Source: Lachnospiraceae bacterium
GTDB taxonomy: Bacteria > Bacillota > Clostridia > Lachnospirales > Lachnospiraceae
DNA length: 52,653 bases
Assembly: GCA_014804785.1 (NCBI GenBank)
Contig: JAAUZD010000055.1
Span: 1-52,653, forward strand
Reading direction: 5' to 3'
Below, piece after piece: positions 2,881 to 35,428 of this stretch. The stretch's first letter is position 1. Every line of letters begins with the position of its first letter. The notes below the pieces were generated by a model. It was not told the origin of the DNA and ran no database searches. It worked only from the letters and a program-made list of their open reading frames with translations. A program made the translations under genes and the position numbers.

Positions 2881-3584
2881 TATAAGATTCCTCCTCTATA
2901 CAGAACAGATACCGCCCCATTTCCAGTAAATGTCATGACATGCTCTCCCTCCGCCAGCAGTAGTTCATATAGCTTTGTGTGACCTGCCGAAAGCTGGAAT
3001 GTCTTTCCTTCACAATTTAGTGTCATGGGGGCGTTACAGATGATTTCCGGCACTGCGTGCTTTTGACGTCCCACTACCGTTATGCTTCCAGTCCCCCGGA
3101 TAGGAATATTTGAGTAATTTCTTATTATTCCATCCACAAAAGAAAAAGGATCCCAGCGCCACGGTTCGATTCCGTCATAAAGTTCATATTTGTATGGATC
3201 CGCATCCACTGTTATTACCAGCGTTCCCACCATTCTTTTTCGGCTATAGCTTGATACCGCTGCCCGTCCGGAGTAATAATAACCTCTGTCATCATCAAAA
3301 ATTACTTTAACTTTTTTTCCATGAAATTCTTTTTGAATTTCACTATACAGGAATGGCCATTCATCCTTTACGTGTCCGGACCCAAACTTCATGGTAATTA
3401 CCCTGTTTTGGTAGACCGGATACCCTGTAACAGCTTCTGACAGGTCGAGGGCACCGTCACTGGCCGGCATATTCACTACATTACTTTTGAGTTTCGGCGG
3501 CTGTACACAGTGCATTTCCGCCAGTGCCATTTTATAGCGTTTGAACATGTGGATTTCATTTATGGATACACTGTAAAAAATCAT
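2880..3584 (-). CDS. Distal tail protein (Dit)
   Basis: This 234-residue protein lies between the tape measure and the tail-tip hub, the fixed place of Dit in siphoviruses. The N-terminal part resembles the siphovirus tail component family (start MIFYSVSINEIHMFKRYK, later YQNRVITMKFG and KVKVIFDDDRGYYYSGR), followed by a beta-sandwich-like C-terminus. Dit forms the hexameric ring that joins the tail tube to the baseplate. Its ATG overlaps the tape-measure stop by 4 bases (ATGA). Confidence 0.82.
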   Translation of the reverse strand: MIFYSVSINEIHMFKRYKMALAEMHCVQPPKLKSNVVNMPASDGALDLSEAVTGYPVYQNRVITMKFGSGHVKDEWPFLYSEIQKEFHGKKVKVIFDDDRGYYYSGRAAVSSYSRKRMVGTLVITVDADPYKYELYDGIEPWRWDPFSFVDGIIRNYSNIPIRGTGSITVVGRQKHAVPEIICNAPMTLNCEGKTFQLSAGHTKLYELLLAEGEHVMTFTGNGAVSVLYRGGIL

Positions 3585-6500
3585 GTGACACCGCCTCTCA
3601 TATAATAGGTCTGGCTCTGCTGCATCCGCTGGTCAATCTGCGGCATCAGCTTCCCTACCAAAGTATTGCCGTCAAGATACAAATCGCCAGACTTATCCGC
3701 GATAACCTTCAAGTAGGAGAGCATCTCTTCTGTAAGAGCATTGCTGGACGCTCCTGTTAAATCTATATTTCCATATTGTGGAGTCTCAACAGCATCCATA
3801 TTTACCATATCCGCCATAGCGGAGCGGATCTGTGCATTCATTTCCCCCAGTCTTTCAAGCGTTCCTTCTCCAAAGCCTTCTGCATACATTTCACCCAGCC
3901 ATCGGGCTTTTTTAGAAGGGGAATTTACCTGTAATTCTGTCTTGCTGGCATTATATGCTTCCCTTGCTATTTCCCTGGCAGCTTCTATTGCCACGTGCAT
4001 CTGTTCTCTAATGCCTGCTGCCATACCAGTACTTACAGCATTGCCTATTTTTTTGAATGTGCCACTTTCATTGCCGCTGATTTCCAAGTTTGACTCTGCT
4101 TCACTAATAGCATTCCCTGCGACCTCTCCTGTGGCAGTAACAACTTTCGCACCGTCTTCTTTCACAGTCTTTTCAAGCGTCTGCATTGTCGCTTTGGTAG
4201 CATCTATCACTTTATCGTTCGCATCAGATACAGTGGTGACAAATTCTTCACTTTTTGTATCCCAGTCATCTGCCATACTTGCTGTAGCTTCCGTCTGCGC
4301 ATTCAGGAGCAATTTCATCTGTTCGGAATACCCCGACTGCATATCCGCCATAGTGTCAATTAATATTTCCTTCGCCTCGCTCATTTCAGACCAGCCATCC
4401 AGTACTCTTTGGAAAGATTCATCTCCTTCCTCAAATGCCTGCACAAGTTCATCCAGATATCCGGCACCGGAGATTCCCATGTCCATAATCGACTGTACAA
4501 TATCATCAAAGCTCCCTGTTGTATCTTCTTTCATGATCTGTGCAGCTTTTGCAAGATTCTCCGTATACTGGGTGTAAGTATCTTTCTGGGAGGCAAGGTT
4601 ATCTGCCATCTGCTGTACAGTCAGGTCAGATTCTGTTTTTAATTCCTGAAACAATCCTACCTGGCCGTTTATTGCTTCTTCTGCCTTTTCCCGCACTTCG
4701 TCATACGCATCACGCAGCGTCTCCTGTGCTGCCGCCACTTCTGCCGTAGCTTCATAAGCTACTCCTTCAAAATAGATAGTCTGTGTCGCCAGTGTCTCTG
4801 CACCGGTAGCTGCTGTTTCTGCTGCTTCGGCCAGTTCCTGATATTCTGACTCGAGATCATCCATAGTAGCGCTGAGTTCTTCTTCCTGCTCTGTTTGTTC
4901 CTTAACGGCATCGGTCAGTTCGGCAATCCTTAACCTGTAGTTATCAGCTTCATTATTCAGGGCATATGCCGCGGTGACATCATTAAGAGCCTCGCTGTTA
5001 TCTTTCAGAAACTTATTGTATTCCTCGGTTACTTCCGCCAGCTCCTGTTCCGTCTGTTTACGCTGCTCAATTATTTCATTCCGCTGCTTGTCTGCTTCAT
5101 AATACTGGTGTGCCGCTTCTTCTGCATCTGCCTGACGGAATTTTGCCTCCAGCACCGCAAGCTGGGCTTCTGCATTCGCTTCCCAACCTTCAGTATTTTC
5201 AGCCAGTTTTCCTGTCTGCTCGTCAATAATAAGATTCAGCTCCGGCATCTCCTGGTTGAGTTGCTGCACAATGAGCTTCATTTTATTTTTTTCTTCTGTG
5301 GAGAGTTTTTCTTTACTGTTCAATTCTGATAACTGGGTTTTCAGAATTTTTAATGTTCCTATTTCGGCTTCATTTGCCGCAGTTGCATCCTTCCGGCTGG
5401 AAATTTCAGTATTCAGTGTGTCGATCTGCTCCTGATTTGCATCCAGCATTTCCCTGACTTCGCCTGCAGCAGTTGCATTTATGGCGGCATAGGCTGCCAC
5501 GGCTGTTGTAATGCCAACAATAGCAGTGATTAAAATGCCGGCTGGACTTGCATTCATGGCCGTAGTCAATAACCATTGTGTAACCGTAGCCTCTTCATTC
5601 GCTGTTTTATATGCTTTCCATGCCGCAGTCACTGCCTCGATTGCAGGTCCTATTACCTTCATTTCCAGATTTGCGGCAGTAATTCCTGCAATCCCCGCAA
5701 TAACCAGATCAGAATTTTCCAGTACCCACGACAACCCATCTATGACCAGAGGGAGTGCATCCTCGGCAAATCCGATTGCGCCTTCGGCAGCATCTCCTAA
5801 AGCACTTGCAAACTCGTCCATGGATCTGCCAAGTTTTCCGTTGTCCATCGAATCTTGCAGTTTTCCCACAGAATCCGTTGCAGCATCTACGGAATTTTTC
5901 AAAGTACCTTCAATCTTTTCATATGCAGAAATTCCCAGAGACTCCAGCGCGCTCTGTAGAATCGTTACTTTTCCGGCCAGATTTGCTTCCATTGTTTCAG
6001 CCATATTCTGGGCTGCTCCCTCGCAGTCTTTCAGCTGTGCCTTTAAGTTCTCAAATTCATCTCCGGTACCTTCCAAGAGGGCATTGACTGCCGCAATATC
6101 AGTCTTATTGAATATGGCGCTTATCTTCCGGGTTTTTTCAGAAGAGGACAAACCATCTAATGATGCCTTTAAGTCGACCATAATGTCGTTCATATCCCTC
6201 ATATTGCCCTGGCTGTCTGTAATATTTAGTCCCAAACTTTTTATTTCCTTAGCGGCAGTTTTGGTAGGTGCTGATAACGACAAAATGATATTTCTTAAGT
6301 GGGTTCCGCCTTCTGCTCCCTTGATACCTCTATTTGCAAGTACTCCCAATTCCGAATTCATAGTTTCAAGGCTCTGATTTGACAGGGATACTGTGCCGGC
6401 ACATACCAGCGTTGCTTCTCCAAGCTGGGCTACGCTGGTATTTGATTTCTGGGCAGTTCTTGCCATTTCATCTATGTAATTATTCAGTTGTGAGGTTTCT

Positions 6501-26435: not shown

Positions 26436-26915
26436 TCACCCCATGTAATATTCTGTAATGATCTGTTTTGCCCTTCCCATTCCCGGAATACCCAATGTGC
26501 AGTGATAATTTACACCTGCTGCCTTGATGATATCTTTATCTACCGGATGCTGGTTTTTAAATGACCATTTCAGCAGGGCCCCGATACACCCCTTAAGGCT
26601 CTTTCCTTTCTTTCTCACAGCTGCTGCCATGTGTTCATCTTCCTGACAGCGCACTTTGATGTAGGAAAGCCAGTCCTGCATGATCTCATAGGGCTTTAAC
26701 TCTGCCTCCTCTATTTTCAGCTTTCCATAAGCAGCCATAAGGGGATTTGCTAATTCAGACACCGCGCCATCTATGAAATCTTGCGCATCCTCTTTATCGA
26801 TTCCATTTTCCTCGGCTATGGCAAGGACTGCCTCTGTATCTCCCTCTTCAAGCTGTGCCGCTGCAGCTTCGTTCATCTCCTGTGCTGAATCAAATTCTCC
26901 AAATCTATCAAACAT
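26436..26915 (-). CDS. PcfK-like / AcrIIA9-family protein
   Basis: This 159-residue protein has an acidic helical N-terminus (AAAQLEEGDTEAVLAIAEEN), then NPLMAAYGKLKIEE, IMQDWLSYIKVRCQEDEHMA, RKKGKSLKGCIGALLKWSFK and a C-terminal LGIPGMGRAKQIITEYYMG. The central part matches what I recall of PcfK-like proteins, a family in which one member, AcrIIA9, inhibits Cas9. Adjacent PcfJ supports the PcfK reading. Whether this copy inhibits Cas9 is not shown by the sequence. Confidence 0.6.
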   Translation of the reverse strand: MFDRFGEFDSAQEMNEAAAAQLEEGDTEAVLAIAEENGIDKEDAQDFIDGAVSELANPLMAAYGKLKIEEAELKPYEIMQDWLSYIKVRCQEDEHMAAAVRKKGKSLKGCIGALLKWSFKNQHPVDKDIIKAAGVNYHCTLGIPGMGRAKQIITEYYMG

Positions 26916-27636
26916 TTTCTTCTCTCCCTTCTGTTTTTGTGGTCAGATCGATCTGAACCTTCGCAACTTCCACCGCCGCCTTGTAGACAAGCGCATATTT
27001 ATTGTCACCGTGGGTCTCCTGCACCTTTTTAAGGAATCTGTCAATCTTGCCAAGGAAACAGCCACATCTGACTGTGATCTCATTATCTTTATCCCTGAAA
27101 AAGGTTGTGAAATCATTCCGGCTGCCAGCTGGTCCGATTACCAGAAGATGGCTTATCTGTAAGACCTCGGCATTACCGCAGACCCAGGCATCACCGTAGA
27201 CCTCGGCATTACCGCAGACCCAGGCATCACCGTAGACCTCGGCATTACCGCAGACCTTGGCATTACCGTAGACCTTGGCATCACCGTAGACCTCGGCATT
27301 ACCGCAGACCTTGGCATTACCGTAGACCTTGGCATTACCGTAGACCTTGGCATTACCGTAGACCTCGGCATTACCGTAGACCTCGGCATTACCGCAGACC
27401 CAGGCATCACCGTAGACCTCGGCATTACCGCAGACCCAGGCATCACCGTAGACCTCGGCATTACCGTAGACCCAGGCATCATTTTCTTGGGAGAGGTTTT
27501 CTTCCTTCTCTATCCATCCACCCAACTCACCGACCTTGACCAGTCCGAATGCAACTGTTGCCCTTATCCTTCTGACTGTAATATCACCCAAAATACCCAC
27601 TTTTTTAGTTTCACCTGTAAATTCATATTTCTTCAT
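26908..27636 (-). CDS. Hexapeptide-repeat beta-helix phage protein
   Basis: This is a 242-residue protein. The N-terminal about 50 residues (MKKYEFTGETKKVGILGDIT, LGGWIEKEENLSQENDAW) lead into about 17 six-residue units of the type NAEVYG/DAWVCG (about residues 53-157), expected to form a left-handed beta-helix. The C-terminal domain (LLVIGPAGSRNDFTTFFRDK, RCGCFLGKIDRFLKKVQETH) recurs in phage proteins of this build. No catalytic function is evident. The repeats are nearly identical DNA units. The start follows AAAGGAGAGTTAAAGA. Confidence 0.7.
   Translation of the reverse strand: MKKYEFTGETKKVGILGDITVRRIRATVAFGLVKVGELGGWIEKEENLSQENDAWVYGNAEVYGDAWVCGNAEVYGDAWVCGNAEVYGNAEVYGNAKVYGNAKVYGNAKVCGNAEVYGDAKVYGNAKVCGNAEVYGDAWVCGNAEVYGDAWVCGNAEVLQISHLLVIGPAGSRNDFTTFFRDKDNEITVRCGCFLGKIDRFLKKVQETHGDNKYALVYKAAVEVAKVQIDLTTKTEGREENV
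27163..27480 (-). repeat. 18-bp tandem repeat array inside the hexapeptide gene
   Basis: About 17-18 copies of an 18-base unit (GTCTACGGTAATGCCAAG-like, minus strand) differ by few bases, mainly TAC/TGC, AAT/GAT and GAG/AAG/TGG. The repeat also keeps a second frame open across 330 bases. The array is liable to gain or lose units without shifting frame. Confidence 0.92.
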
Positions 27637-28134: not shown

Positions 28135-28934
28135 TATCCATCACCTCCCTTCGGGCGTTGCACCGGTGCAACCTGTCTCTTAGTGGACTTGCGCTCCAGT
28201 TTAATCATGGTAAAATACTGATACTCGTAGCCTGTGACGGGGTTAATTCCCATGACGACCGAATCTTCGTCTATGTAATATCCCGGCAACGGCTCCGGGG
28301 GGTTCTGCATATCTTTTTTAAGCGCCCTTGTGATTTCCGGCTCCGGAACGTGAAGATTACGGCTCCTTGAATAATTTCTTTCAATTCCCTCTTTCTCCGG
28401 CGGCTTGGCGATATAATGTGCCAGCCCTGCAAATCCACCCTCTGCATAGATTGGGGTGAAGCTGTGGAATCCGGTTCCTTCTATCTTTTGCCAGCATTCC
28501 TTGATGATGATATCTCCATCAGGAATCCTGTTTACTAACAAATGATGGTGGGCTGCTCCTTTTTCTCCGATATCTGTCCTTACTACCCACTTGAGCTCAT
28601 GCCCCCGTTTTCTCCATTCCCTCCGCAGCATACGAATAAATCTGCTGAAATCTTTCTTTGCCGATTTGATATTGGTGCGGTATCCACGTCGATATGTAAG
28701 GAGCGTCCAGTAATCATTTTCATTGAAGTTCTCCTCCAGAATCCTTTCTAAATTCTTCTCTCTCCTGTACTGATTCCACCTTGTGATCTGTTCTTCTGTA
28801 GCCTTCTGCTTTTTCGCACGCTTCTTGCCACGTCCTCCGTAATCTCCGGTGCATACTCTTTCTACATGTATGGACGAAGCGAAATAGTAACATCTCTGCT
28901 CCCGCTTATATCTCTTTTTCTTTTTCCTTCTCAT
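28134..28934 (-). CDS. HUH rolling-circle replication initiator-like protein
   Basis: This 266-residue protein has a very basic N-terminus (MRRKKKKRYKREQRCYYFAS), DYWTLLTYRRGYRTNIKSAK, the HUH core AAHHHLLVNRIP and a candidate catalytic tyrosine in GLAHYIAKPPEKEG. HUH enzymes nick one strand at an origin hairpin and stay linked through tyrosine. Here it probably starts prophage replication. ATG at 28934 has GGACCAGGG upstream. An open frame extends to 29054 through the hairpin-rich leader but lacks a ribosome site. See the antisense RNA in the leader. Confidence 0.78.
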   Translation of the reverse strand: MRRKKKKRYKREQRCYYFASSIHVERVCTGDYGGRGKKRAKKQKATEEQITRWNQYRREKNLERILEENFNENDYWTLLTYRRGYRTNIKSAKKDFSRFIRMLRREWRKRGHELKWVVRTDIGEKGAAHHHLLVNRIPDGDIIIKECWQKIEGTGFHSFTPIYAEGGFAGLAHYIAKPPEKEGIERNYSRSRNLHVPEPEITRALKKDMQNPPEPLPGYYIDEDSVVMGINPVTGYEYQYFTMIKLERKSTKRQVAPVQRPKGGDG

Positions 28935-28972
28935 ATACCCTGGTCCTATCTTTAATGTGCTTAACAAGTTGT

Positions 28973-28999
28973 GAAAAGTAGGGAAAATCCCTACTTTTC
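28973..28999. repeat. 12-bp hairpin in the rep leader
   Basis: GAAAAGTAGGGA (28973-28984) and TCCCTACTTTTC (28988-28999) form a perfect stem with a 3-base loop, 39 bases upstream of the rep ATG and touching the -35 box of the antisense promoter. It could be a Rep nicking hairpin, an operator or an RNA regulatory stem. No U-tract follows on either strand. Confidence 0.75.
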
Positions 29000-29028
29000 T
29001 TGACATTCTGGACCATATGCGGTATACT
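29000..29028 (+). promoter_or_regulatory. Consensus promoter antisense to the rep leader
   Basis: TTGACA (29000-29005), 17 bases, then TATACT (29023-29028): a perfect -35 and near-perfect -10 with ideal spacing, reading rightward while all nearby genes read leftward. Its spacer is largely one arm of the inverted repeat 29011-29022/29049-29060. Confidence 0.82.
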
Positions 29029-29060
29029 TTTCTTAGGTGATTAGGTTTCCGCATATGGTC
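29011..29060. repeat. Perfect 12-bp inverted repeat in the rep leader
   Basis: GACCATATGCGG (29011-29022) and CCGCATATGGTC (29049-29060) are separated by 26 bases. In the rep mRNA leader they can form a stem. In DNA the left arm lies between -35 and -10 of the antisense promoter, so it may also be an operator. Confidence 0.85.
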
Positions 29061-29102
29061 GGATGCCAGCGCATAAGTTTTCGCTTATGCGCTATTTTTT
29101 TT
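29035..29102 (+). ncRNA. Candidate countertranscribed RNA of the rep gene
   Basis: A transcript from the promoter at 29000-29028 would start near 29035 and end at a strong terminator: AGCGCATAAG (29068-29077), TTTTCG loop, CTTATGCGCT (29084-29093), then eight T (29095-29102). The RNA is about 66 bases, fully complementary to the rep mRNA leader, and carries one arm of the leader inverted repeat. This is the layout of antisense copy-number control in rolling-circle plasmids. Expression is not shown by sequence. Confidence 0.65.
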
Positions 29103-33291: not shown

Positions 33292-33864
33292 ATGATTGTT
33301 TTTGTTATTCTATTAATATTTATCTTGTTATGTATACTATTTCTTTATTATGTTCGCTCTTTAAATTCTAAACCCAAAACTGATGCTCCTCATCCAAATT
33401 CAGGTTCTTTTCACGGATCAAGCATGTTTAAGTTAATTGACGGAATAGATGGATGGGGCAAGGGTATTTTAATAATTAAGGCCGAATTATGGGATGATGG
33501 TATTATGTTTCACCAGTCCGCAATAGGTGATTCTCCACACATTACTCTTTTATATGATCAAATTACCAGCACATCTGTTTATACAGAGGAAGAAATTATT
33601 GAAAAGTCCAAAAGCGTTTTAGGTCGTGCTGCCGCTGGTGCTGTGTTTTTTGGTCCTCTTGGAGCTATTATTGGTGGTATGAGCGGAACAGGTTCTACTA
33701 GCACAAGCAAAACTAATTTCTATTATACGATTAATTATGTTAAATCAGATTCTACTCCTGGCATGATCACACTTGGCACATCATGTTCTGGATGTAATTG
33801 GTCAAAATTTGACAATCTGTTAAAACCTTTTATTCCGCAGAAAAATAATCCAGAATATTTGTAA
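33292..33864 (+). CDS. Membrane-anchored lysogeny-module protein
   Basis: This 190-residue protein has an N-terminal hydrophobic helix (VFVILLIFILLCILFLYYV), a linker and a soluble beta-rich part (GKGILIIKAELWDDGIMFHQ, ITLLYDQITSTSVYTEEEII), with a glycine-rich hydrophobic patch AAGAVFFGPLGAIIGGMSG. The start follows TAGGAGGTTTCTA. Its place between repressor and integrase suggests expression in the lysogen, as for superinfection-exclusion proteins; this is inference, and no known family was recognised. Confidence 0.65.
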   Translation: MIVFVILLIFILLCILFLYYVRSLNSKPKTDAPHPNSGSFHGSSMFKLIDGIDGWGKGILIIKAELWDDGIMFHQSAIGDSPHITLLYDQITSTSVYTEEEIIEKSKSVLGRAAAGAVFFGPLGAIIGGMSGTGSTSTSKTNFYYTINYVKSDSTPGMITLGTSCSGCNWSKFDNLLKPFIPQKNNPEYL

Positions 33865-33865
33865 T

Positions 33866-33937
33866 TAAAAACCGCCCTAGTGCTGTAACACCAGAGCGGC
33901 AAGGTTATACCGGGAAAACCGATATAAATGTCATGAT
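33866..33937 (-). ncRNA. Candidate small RNA antisense to the integrase leader
   Basis: The promoter TTGATT (33972-33967), 17 bases, TATAAT (33949-33944) reads leftward. A stem of 11 pairs (33889-33899 with 33872-33882, loop CTGTAA) followed by five U (33871-33867) ends the RNA. The stem has two G-U pairs on the minus strand that become mismatches on the plus strand, so it is a leftward terminator. The RNA would be about 70 bases, opposite the 3' UTR of the membrane gene and the integrase leader. Confidence 0.6.
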
Positions 33938-34030
33938 TTGCATATTATATCACCTTCCTGGAACGAAATCAAGTTGCCGGGCATTTTTATGTCCTGCTGC
34001 CAGTAAAATAATTGTACAGGAGGATGTTTC

Positions 34031-35428
34031 ATGTCTAAAGTTGAAAGATGTGCTATCTATATACGTGTTTCATCGGCTGAACAGGTCATGCATGGAAAAA
34101 GCCTTGATGCACAGCTCCGTTTCCTAACTGAATATGCTGAAAATAAAGGTTGGAAACTGATCGGGCATTTTGCGGATGAAGGAAAGACTGCTCGAAAGGA
34201 ATTGAAACGAAGAAAGGCAATCAAGGAACTTCTTGAATGTGTCAAAAGAGATGAAGTAGATGTAATTCTATTCTGGAAAATGGATCGCTGGTTTCGTAAT
34301 GTATCCGATTTTTACAAAGTCCAGGATATCCTTGACGCTCATAACTGTTACTGGGTTGCTGCCGCCGAACCCAGTATGAACCTTGAAACCAGAGAGGGAC
34401 GTCTTAACGTTAATATCATGCTTTCAATTAATCAAAATGAAACGGATACTACCAGTGAACGTATTAAATTTGTTAATGAAGCATCTGTACGTCAAGGAAA
34501 GGCAATCTTTGGCGATTCCTCCCTTCCTTTCGGCTATATGGTTCAGATTATTGATGGTGTCAAGCGTATTGTCAAAGATCCTCAAAAGGAACATCTGGTG
34601 GAAGAGATATTTGAACATTACCTTGCCTATCAAAGTAAAACCGGTACAGTTAAATACATCAATGAGAAGTATGGCGAAATCTTTACCATAAATACTATGC
34701 TTAAAATGTGTAAGCATACCTTTTACTATGGTTCCTATCGCGGTAATGATGATTATTGTCCAGCTTATATTACGCGCGAACAGTATGACCAAATGCAGGA
34801 CATAAATCAGAGAAATATCAAAATCAAACAAAGCCAGCAAAAACAGGATCCCTATCTTTTCACTGGTTTATTTGTATGCCCTATCTGCGGACGCCGCCTC
34901 GCTTCGGCTAGAAAGAGAGGGAAGGCCGCTGGAGTATATTACCGTTATTACCGATGTGCTAATCATTACTCGAACAGGCTATGCTCTTATTCCAAGGTTA
35001 TCAATGAAAATGTAGCGGAATCCTTTTTGCTGAATAATATCATGGCAATATATGAAAACAAAAAAATTGTACTGGAACAGGTTTCCGAAAAGAAGGTCCT
35101 TCCTAAAAAAACTGATATCGACAAGCACAGGAAGGAGTTAGACCGTCTGAACAATATGTATCAGAAAGGGCGTATTAGCGAAGAAAAATACGACTCTGAA
35201 TATCTGAGGATAACTTCAATCATCAAGGAATCGGAAAAAGAAATGACATATATTCCTGCTGCCAAGAAATCTTTTGAAAAGATCGATAAGGCTCTTTCAG
35301 GGAATTGGATAGAGATATATCAGGCACTCGACAGAGAAAATAAGCGGACTTTCTGGAGAAGTATCATAGAAAGCATGGAATGCAACACAGAATCTGGCAC
35401 AATTAAATCTATAAATTTTTTACTTTGA
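34031..35428 (+). CDS. Large serine integrase
   Basis: This is a 465-residue protein. It has an N-terminal resolvase domain with catalytic Ser14 in CAIYIRVSS, then SLDAQLRFLTEYAENKGW, DVILFWKMDRWFRNV; a recombinase domain with LPFGYMV; a zinc ribbon (CPICGRRLASA, later YRCANHYSNRLC); and a C-terminal coiled coil (about 375-420). It joins attP to the chromosomal attB. The ATG follows CAGGAGGATGTTTC. It ends 8 bases inside the truncated host gene, as expected at an attachment junction. Confidence 0.95.
   Translation: MSKVERCAIYIRVSSAEQVMHGKSLDAQLRFLTEYAENKGWKLIGHFADEGKTARKELKRRKAIKELLECVKRDEVDVILFWKMDRWFRNVSDFYKVQDILDAHNCYWVAAAEPSMNLETREGRLNVNIMLSINQNETDTTSERIKFVNEASVRQGKAIFGDSSLPFGYMVQIIDGVKRIVKDPQKEHLVEEIFEHYLAYQSKTGTVKYINEKYGEIFTINTMLKMCKHTFYYGSYRGNDDYCPAYITREQYDQMQDINQRNIKIKQSQQKQDPYLFTGLFVCPICGRRLASARKRGKAAGVYYRYYRCANHYSNRLCSYSKVINENVAESFLLNNIMAIYENKKIVLEQVSEKKVLPKKTDIDKHRKELDRLNNMYQKGRISEEKYDSEYLRITSIIKESEKEMTYIPAAKKSFEKIDKALSGNWIEIYQALDRENKRTFWRSIIESMECNTESGTIKSINFLL

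Follow-up and report, generated by a model that had tools for sequence, protein, structure and literature searches.

Replication and integration of temperate phages are usually explained by protein repressors. Among staphylococcal RepA_N plasmids, pSK41 encodes RNAI, a short antisense RNA that targets the rep leader ~100 nt before the start and, according to the proposed model, masks the ribosome site by prompting a stem-loop to form when it binds; RNAI of pT181 and RNAIII of pIP501 also act on rep leaders, through competing hairpins and transcription termination (PMC5703833). In Streptococcus pyogenes, the antisense small RNAs (sRNAs) SP119_SR034/071/086/106, reported as a family by a transcriptome study, lie in intergenic DNA upstream of the integrase genes of four prophages, and a role in lysogeny silencing is suggested (PMC6431027). 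Here we analyzed a complete contig of a Lachnospiraceae bacterium (GenBank assembly GCA_014804785.1, contig JAAUZD010000055.1), whose 52,653 bases we call the window, and found an antisense unit opposite the leader of a prophage rep gene, which encodes an HUH replication initiator. On balance, we think that this unit encodes in cis an antisense RNA of a predicted ~67 nt, which would negatively control rep through its mRNA leader by sequestering the start site.

An antisense unit opposite a prophage rep leader

The preliminary description of this DNA had placed a consensus promoter and a strong terminator opposite the rep leader, together with two 12-bp inverted repeats, one with an arm in the promoter spacer. 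All of these are present, and the parts are as follows.

28137..28934, minus strand: rep, encoding a 266-aa HUH replication initiator (HHH, single-Tyr YxxK; PHROG 3584, E 2.6e-49; Pfam PF23343, E 2.9e-13)
28932..28947, minus strand: ribosome-site and start stretch of rep, AGGACCAGGGTATATG, complementary to the H1 3' arm (-17.1 kcal/mol)
28946..28962, minus strand: origin-like motif found by motif scan, matching the consensus AAGTATATTAAAGTTAG at 14 of 17 positions
28973..28999, minus strand: H2, a perfect 12-bp hairpin between the antisense promoter and rep (GAAAAGTAGGGA 28973-28984 with TCCCTACTTTTC 28988-28999), weakly terminator-like in the sense direction
29000..29028, plus strand: antisense promoter found by promoter scan, TTGACA-17-TATACT (11 of 12 matches), with one H1 arm in its spacer at 29011-29022
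29011..29060, minus strand: H1, a hairpin of the rep leader formed by a 12-bp inverted repeat (GACCATATGCGG 29011-29022 with CCGCATATGGTC 29049-29060); 5' arm 29060-29049, 3' (anti-start) arm 29022-29011
29035..29102, plus strand: predicted antisense RNA of ~67 nt, its start at A29035 placed by the spacing from the -10 box
29068..29102, plus strand: H3, the intrinsic terminator of the antisense RNA (AGCGCATAAG-loop-CTTATGCGCT 29068-29093, then A and eight T)

H1 pairs the antisense promoter spacer with a stretch about 20 nt past the -10 box, and its loop contains the antisense -10 and start. The predicted antisense RNA fold is better than all 200 of its shuffles (z -4.2). A mechanical open reading frame (ORF) on the plus strand, a 133-aa GTG frame, crosses the terminator; we saw no support for its being a gene. 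When a pair was defined as a promoter matching at least 10 of 12 positions followed by a terminator 25-100 nt on, the whole window held exactly two on both strands, the rep-leader unit and one starting at 33972 on the minus strand, before the integrase gene. Between 24000 and 34000, promoter-like matches alone were not above chance (21 versus 23.7 in shuffles), and terminator-like matches were somewhat commoner than chance (15 versus 8.1). An antisense promoter and terminator inside a rep leader are the general mark of a countertranscribed RNA of a rep gene, and this predicted pair gives the unit that appearance.

The unit is conserved with rep. Among rep relatives of ~30-47% identity, TTGACT-17-TATACT is often retained on the strand antisense to the leader, followed by a terminator ~65 nt on. 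By the mechanical rule, the antisense strand carries a pair at 23 of 41 rep leaders and the sense strand at 0 of 41, and 12 of the 21 pairs in 695,394 strand-bases (the window and 15 loci around reps) lie in rep leaders. We built two covariance models, R1 from 3 sequences and R2 from 21, the 3-sequence seed being used because MAFFT alone misaligned H1 in mixed sets; all E-values from these models are rough because calibration was short. R2, whose training set includes the window, matches 29000-29102 with 90.1 bits (E 4.3e-15). Across 397 genomes of the host family, it gave 46 matches in 41 genomes at E up to 0.01. Behind these lie 33 rep genes (28 of 30 fetched loci called by a rep hidden Markov model, 5 more by position against lists of rep relatives), 8 integrase genes (called by Pfam, L119 just below the curated cut-off), one AAA_25/DnaB-like ATPase gene, and in 4 cases no clear gene; without the 14 training loci, the figures are 19, 8, 1, and 4 (n = 32). 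The first pass of this search was loose and, with R2, overlooked the integrase unit of the window itself, although searching the window directly recovers that unit; because the first pass loses weak matches, the counts are lower bounds. The match before the ATPase gene (L122 2898-3002, minus strand, E 0.0048; gene at 3029-4003, plus strand) lies directly upstream, and this is perhaps another replication gene so controlled. Two weak matches, L187 2316-2400 and L227 3783-3870 (both minus strand; E 0.036 and 0.017), directly precede ORFs of 149 and 143 aa that are alike by eye. When R2 was run across the phylum, matches came from the window's own genome and 5 others; in those 5, neither rep nor any other long ORF closely follows the match.

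A further set comprised 112 rep loci, 55 from named genomes (mostly Lachnospiraceae or other Clostridia) and 57 from IMG/VR; excluding L200, which lies near a contig end, left 111, a few of which (e.g., L137-L140, L188, L232) duplicate training loci. With E up to 0.01 allowed, 28 of 56 viral loci and 24 of 55 genome loci have an R2 match immediately before rep on the other strand; with E up to 1, the figures are 34 of 56 and 35 of 55. Cultured strains with an R2 unit before rep include Faecalimonas umbilicata DSM 103426 (L187, E 1.2e-6) and, with a weak match, Lachnotalea glycerini DSM 28816 (L144, E 0.64). A tree of 144 Reps was made with FastTree and has several long branches; on it, the unit label (138 rows, 26 set by hand; 6 phage rows unlabeled) needs 23 changes versus 40.5 in shuffles, and Reps without a unit fall mostly in tight clades. 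Inspection by eye, with L073 left out as it lies at a contig end, revealed units in four Latilactobacillus phages, a Terrisporobacter phage, and three uncultured phages; R2 is weak on four of these eight (E 0.05-0.4) and gives no match on the other four. Phages of Latilactobacillus curvatus TMW 1.1381 and TMW 1.1365 are among those showing a unit by eye. No clear unit was seen by eye in two further uncultured phages, a Paraclostridium phage-plasmid, and a Brevibacterium plasmid. The phage-plasmid (L071, Paraclostridium sordellii) is a circular plasmid of 33,930 bases with phage tail genes, ParM, and a distant Rep. One contig binned as Bacteroides (L157) carries a rep near one binned as Clostridium (L159), within the Lachnospiraceae set, possibly a binning error. 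Judged by these matches, the unit is common but not universal among rep relatives. The conservation of promoter and terminator that the preliminary description had proposed to check is thus seen in many relatives; the loss of both from relatives that keep rep, which it had named as a refutation, does occur in some clades, suggesting that the unit is dispensable in some phages.

The unit has no counterpart in Rfam 15 that scores as a family member in our searches. The window gave 0 matches, 13 rep loci gave four weak matches at E up to 5, all below the gathering score, and the integrase units of 7 loci gave none. The only hint on a rep unit is ctRNA_pGA1 at L009 2372-2430 (plus strand; 28.3 bits, gathering 45). 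A type II hammerhead-like match (33.4 bits, gathering 37) lies near a rep locus at L013 535-603 (plus strand), and FuFi-1 (L120) and skipping-rope (L118) RNAs occur near integrase units.

Base changes across relatives support two of the three stems strongly. In alignment A8 (21 relatives, R1 E up to 8e-5, fitted to the structure), all 15 pairs of H1 and all 11 pairs of the H3 terminator stem change on both sides, with 95.2% of H3 cells paired. For H1 in A8, 86.1% of cells pair, versus 49.1% in shuffles and <40% when slid, and the covariation score is 0.782 versus 0.200. Because R2 is fitted to its structure, arm-swap tests that use no fitted alignment matter here. The first swap set held 36 loci with a promoter score of at least 11.5 out of 42 rep loci (duplicate L003 out), and alignments A1 and A2 covered 31 of the same 42. 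H1 arms pair with their own partners at -17.6 versus -9.95 when swapped (20/36 loci in the best 5%), and at -17.25 versus -9.17 in the larger set (28/44). For H2, 13/36 and 10/44 loci are in the best 5%, and by this sequence test H2 is weaker than H1 but real. The antisense RNA contains just one of the two H1 arms, the other being in the promoter spacer. Any action of H1 is therefore confined to the rep mRNA or to DNA, and its covariation constrains the sense leader (or DNA) and not the antisense RNA.

The leader also carries the origin-like motif, scored at 12 or more matches of 17 within 150 nt of rep. It lies between the antisense promoter and rep in 69/69 leaders with an R2 match and in 38/42 without one, compared with 45/555 random windows. 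Its retention in leaders without a match suggests an origin element separate from the antisense unit, a point on which the reading of the preliminary description is altered. A CTTGATA in the leader, resembling nick sites of the pC194/phiX174 kind, fits only part of the relatives, and we make no claim for it. The palindromes could instead be mainly DNA elements of a rolling-circle origin, bound or nicked by Rep, with the promoter incidental. The HUH Rep, the conserved AT-rich motif with H2 right before rep, and H1 covariation, which is compatible with a DNA cruciform too, all fit this, as does the frequent location of double-strand origins upstream of rep in rolling-circle plasmids (PMC5703833, in the part available). 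We consider it highly improbable, given that origin and unit come apart in those 38 leaders, that the T run is on one strand only, and that integrases are preceded by the same design.

Complementarity between the H1 3' arm and the rep start

The H1 3' arm is complementary to the start of its own rep gene in a lineage-specific manner. Against the region from -25 to +14 at 43 loci (L243 was dropped from 44 because the script found no start), own arms pair at -13.53 and swapped arms at -9.84, 12/43 loci are in the best 5%, and 0/5000 permutations reach the observed mean. Four neighboring stretches tested with the same arm were null or nearly so (1222, 128, 1111, and 1305 of 2000 permutations). 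In the window, the arm pairs the start stretch better than all its swaps.

We propose the following mechanism. In free rep mRNA, H1 would form and its 5' arm would hold the 3' arm, leaving the ribosome site and start codon accessible; the 5' arm resembles the rep start region and so could serve as a decoy of the start site. The antisense RNA is predicted to begin within the H1 loop; its complement in the leader comprises the loop's 5' half together with the 5' arm of H1 and the stretch above that arm. By binding the 5' arm it would free the 3' arm, which would then pair GGACCAGGGTATATG at the rep start and block translation. With a promoter so near consensus, leaky expression of rep may be shut off in the lysogen and held down after induction. 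The phage has a sister unit opposite its integrase gene. We infer the production of the RNA, its repressive effect, and the timing of that effect.

Folding predictions agree with this scheme in the window and in a majority of loci. Averaged over 43 loci, the start region is predicted to pair with the H1 3' arm at 0.16 in the free leader and at 0.44 with antisense bound; the value rises by at least 0.2 in 26/43, and it is 0.28 (0.22-0.33) when arms are exchanged among loci. For the window alone, this pairing goes from 0.00 to 0.80, and total start-region pairing from 0.30 to 0.81. A 120-nt leader minus the bound part folds with the start region closed, and in a 135-nt leader that keeps the H1 5' arm, H1 forms instead; both folds are stabler than all 200 shuffles.

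Several points weigh against start-site sequestration. Mean total start-region pairing moves only from 0.55 to 0.63 over the 43 loci, because many starts are already partly paired in the free leader, and 17/43 loci lack the 0.2 rise in arm-start pairing. Some loci, L192, L139, and L248 among them, pair no better than swapped arms, and part of the complementarity is common to all loci (AGTATANCAT versus ATGGCATACT), for which the -10 box may be partly responsible. A script picked the start codons, and the bound state was modeled by removing the antisense-bound stretch in equilibrium folds, with no proteins or kinetics. At the window's integrase gene, start pairing to the arm goes from 0.00 to 0.34, but total start pairing is unchanged (0.76 and 0.76), so that only the partner changes. 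Finally, 42/111 rep leaders have no R2 match nearby, and Butyrivibrio Arawn-type and Faecalibacterium Toutatis/Lelie phages show no clear unit by eye.

Bound antisense RNA might instead let a sense terminator form before rep, as in pT181, built either by H2 or by the 3' arms of H1 and H2 together. The conservation of H2, followed by short U runs, is in keeping with this, as is the gain of at least 0.2 in a hairpin before a T run in 12/41 rep leaders (4 of 45 had no T run). A subset also has good pairing between the 3' arms of H1 and H2 (arms B and D; 7/36 in the best 5%, window rank 0.986, first set), and at integrase leaders the H1 3' arm pairs the stretch from -65 to -26 better than swapped arms (1/2000 permutations). 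In the larger rep set, own B:D arms are hardly better than swapped ones (-8.76 versus -8.32; 5/44 in the best 5%; window rank 0.895), the window's H2 is formed alike in both states (0.84 and 0.84), and the U run after it is only four long. By these folding models, attenuation of the window's rep is not supported, and we regard this explanation as unlikely. The preliminary description had likened the layout to pT181: the antisense RNA unit over a rep leader stands, and the attenuator pairing is not supported. Other pairings were also unsupported by swap test, namely arm A with C (3/36), A with D (0/36), B with C (0/36 and 1/44), C:D being H2, and the loop with H2 (0/36).

A sister unit before the integrase gene

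The second promoter/terminator pair of the window lies before the integrase gene of the same prophage.

33864..33972, minus strand: second antisense unit, opposite the integrase leader (TTGATT-17-TATAAT 33972-33944; terminator 33900-33871)
34031..35428, plus strand: serine integrase gene (PHROG 95, E 2.3e-99; Pfam Resolvase, Recombinase, Zn_ribbon_recom)

A model built from six other integrase-leader units, R3, matches the window's unit at E 1.4e-12, and the rep model R2 matches it at E 1.6e-4. Over 299 family genomes, R3 gave 67 with a match at E up to 0.01, some at rep units, which it also detects. The 30 R3 loci listed include 5 seeds. Among the remaining 25, Pfam identifies a tyrosine or serine recombinase behind 19 (18/20 Pfam-tested loci, with L258 under the curated cut-off, and the window), the fragments L259 and L261 have no Pfam match, and L262, L274, L276, and L277 lay outside the Pfam test. 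In other phages, too, a second unit lies kilobases from the rep unit (e.g., L110, L193, L207, L246). Because the arms of the integrase units are nearly identical in all loci, swapping them discriminates little; the start-region test gave 146/2000, and the H1 swap test 4/22. In all 22 integrase leaders covered, the bases before some T run are paired in the bound state (mean 0.88), with a rise of 0.2 in 4/22, and in at least four (the window, L121, L257, and L266), the paired stretch is the ribosome site and not a terminator. The preliminary description had read the rep unit as plasmid-type replication control in a temperate phage; an antisense unit over an HUH rep leader in a tailed-phage prophage is indeed present, but the design is not special to replication, as integrase genes are preceded by it too.

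The sister units also bear on an alternative drawn from phage lambda, in which the convergent promoter interferes with transcription or acts near the origin, or the RNA targets the 3' end of the upstream gene, with no pairing to the rep leader. The geometry is similar, a short antisense unit beside a replication gene that ends at the 3' end of the preceding ORF, and in lambda, pO activity itself affects replication and OOP RNA acts on cII (PMC3985674, in the part available). Yet mechanically picked ORFs upstream of the unit fall in 30 clusters among 41 loci while the unit stays with rep, which, as an indirect test, does not suggest an upstream target. Interference alone would account neither for H1 covariation nor for the complementarity of H1 to the start of rep, and sister units precede integrases. 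We therefore judge this reading improbable, more so than attenuation.

The window's prophage also encodes a tail tape measure, major head protein, portal, and TerL, and to its right are chromosomal-looking genes (EAL/GGDEF, M20 peptidase, carbamoyl-phosphate synthase). PF23343 (REP_ORF2-G2P) is the sole Pfam match of the Rep, which by Pfam is neither Rep_trans (pT181-type) nor RepA_N (pSK41-type). H129, H131, Y174, and K177, the HUH His pair and the YxxK Tyr and Lys, are invariant in 29 Rep sequences; with the HUH motif and catalytic Tyr of a rolling-circle initiator, the protein is predicted to nick DNA. No plasmid relative was found by tblastn, and single-protein scans of viral contigs and genome contigs gave no match. 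A second, distant Rep relative (28% identity) is encoded in the same genome (L016, C23 342076-342588), with no R2 match at E up to 1. The prophage also carries a beta-solenoid repeat protein gene (26908-27636, minus strand; YdcK-type, Pfam PF18836) with near-identical DNA repeats at ~27400-27480. Because a serine integrase is present and the prophage looks integrated, copy-number control is only one option for the rep unit, and silencing of rep and int in the lysogen would be at least as likely.

Comparison with known systems

Taken together, the sequences suggest that a layer of control made of RNA, and widespread, acts on two key genes within one prophage, in a compact design whose promoter spacer is also the anti-start arm and couples the promoter of the regulator to the ribosome site of its target. 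A broader proposal, which we hold to be doubtful, is that an unnamed class of antisense RNA switches, with promoter spacers encoding an anti-ribosome-site arm, locks the replication and integration genes of many Lachnospiraceae prophages. Such RNAs might also give superinfection immunity or prophage incompatibility groups, given the rapid divergence of H1 sequences and the ability of antisense RNAs to work in trans. Testable predictions follow about lysogeny and induction in gut bacteria and about how compatible their prophages are, and the covariance models offer a way to find such units.

Antisense sRNAs before prophage integrases are already published for S. pyogenes; like the window's second unit, they are antisense in the region upstream of the gene, and unlike it, they are described, in the part of that report available, for integrase only and not for rep, and no mechanism is given there (PMC6431027). 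By eye, two streptococcal phage integrase leaders (L135, L136) hold an antisense promoter and terminator, and in the record of Lactococcus phage BK5-T, a putative antisense terminator is already marked within the integrase leader (L134 772-805, minus strand). L134-L136 gave no R3 match up to E 0.5, and R2 reached only E 0.43, in L134; hence no homology is shown. The rep-leader unit is a variant of which we found no description on phage rep genes in the open PMC literature; in the accessible portions, the word integrase is absent from a 2025 review of phage sRNAs (PMC12197685) and the word antisense from a paper on L. curvatus temperate phages (PMC10688831).

Among phage systems, lambda OOP RNA with pO is similar in placing a short antisense unit immediately before a replication gene, but there, OOP targets the cII mRNA and pO acts on transcription towards ori (PMC3985674). 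The RNA-based origins of mycobacteriophage prophages (RedRock, Alma, and others) are likewise plasmid-like RNA replication systems of temperate phages; they differ in using an initiator RNA instead of a Rep protein and in belonging to extrachromosomal prophages, and the available text describes no control of an HUH rep leader (PMC7157519).

Among plasmids, pT181 RNAI and pIP501 RNAIII share with the window an antisense RNA on a rep leader with competing hairpins, but they act by transcription termination, for which the predicted pairing is unsupported at the window's rep, and the pT181 Rep is Rep_trans, not PF23343. The pSK41 system differs in its Rep family and in belonging to a plasmid rather than a phage, and here, the anti-start arm lies within the antisense promoter spacer. 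Its hallmark, an antisense-induced hairpin that hides the rep ribosome site, is predicted for the window and for 26/43 loci, although mean total pairing barely moves. By analogy, the proposed mechanism would resemble pSK41 control more than the terminator switch of pT181.
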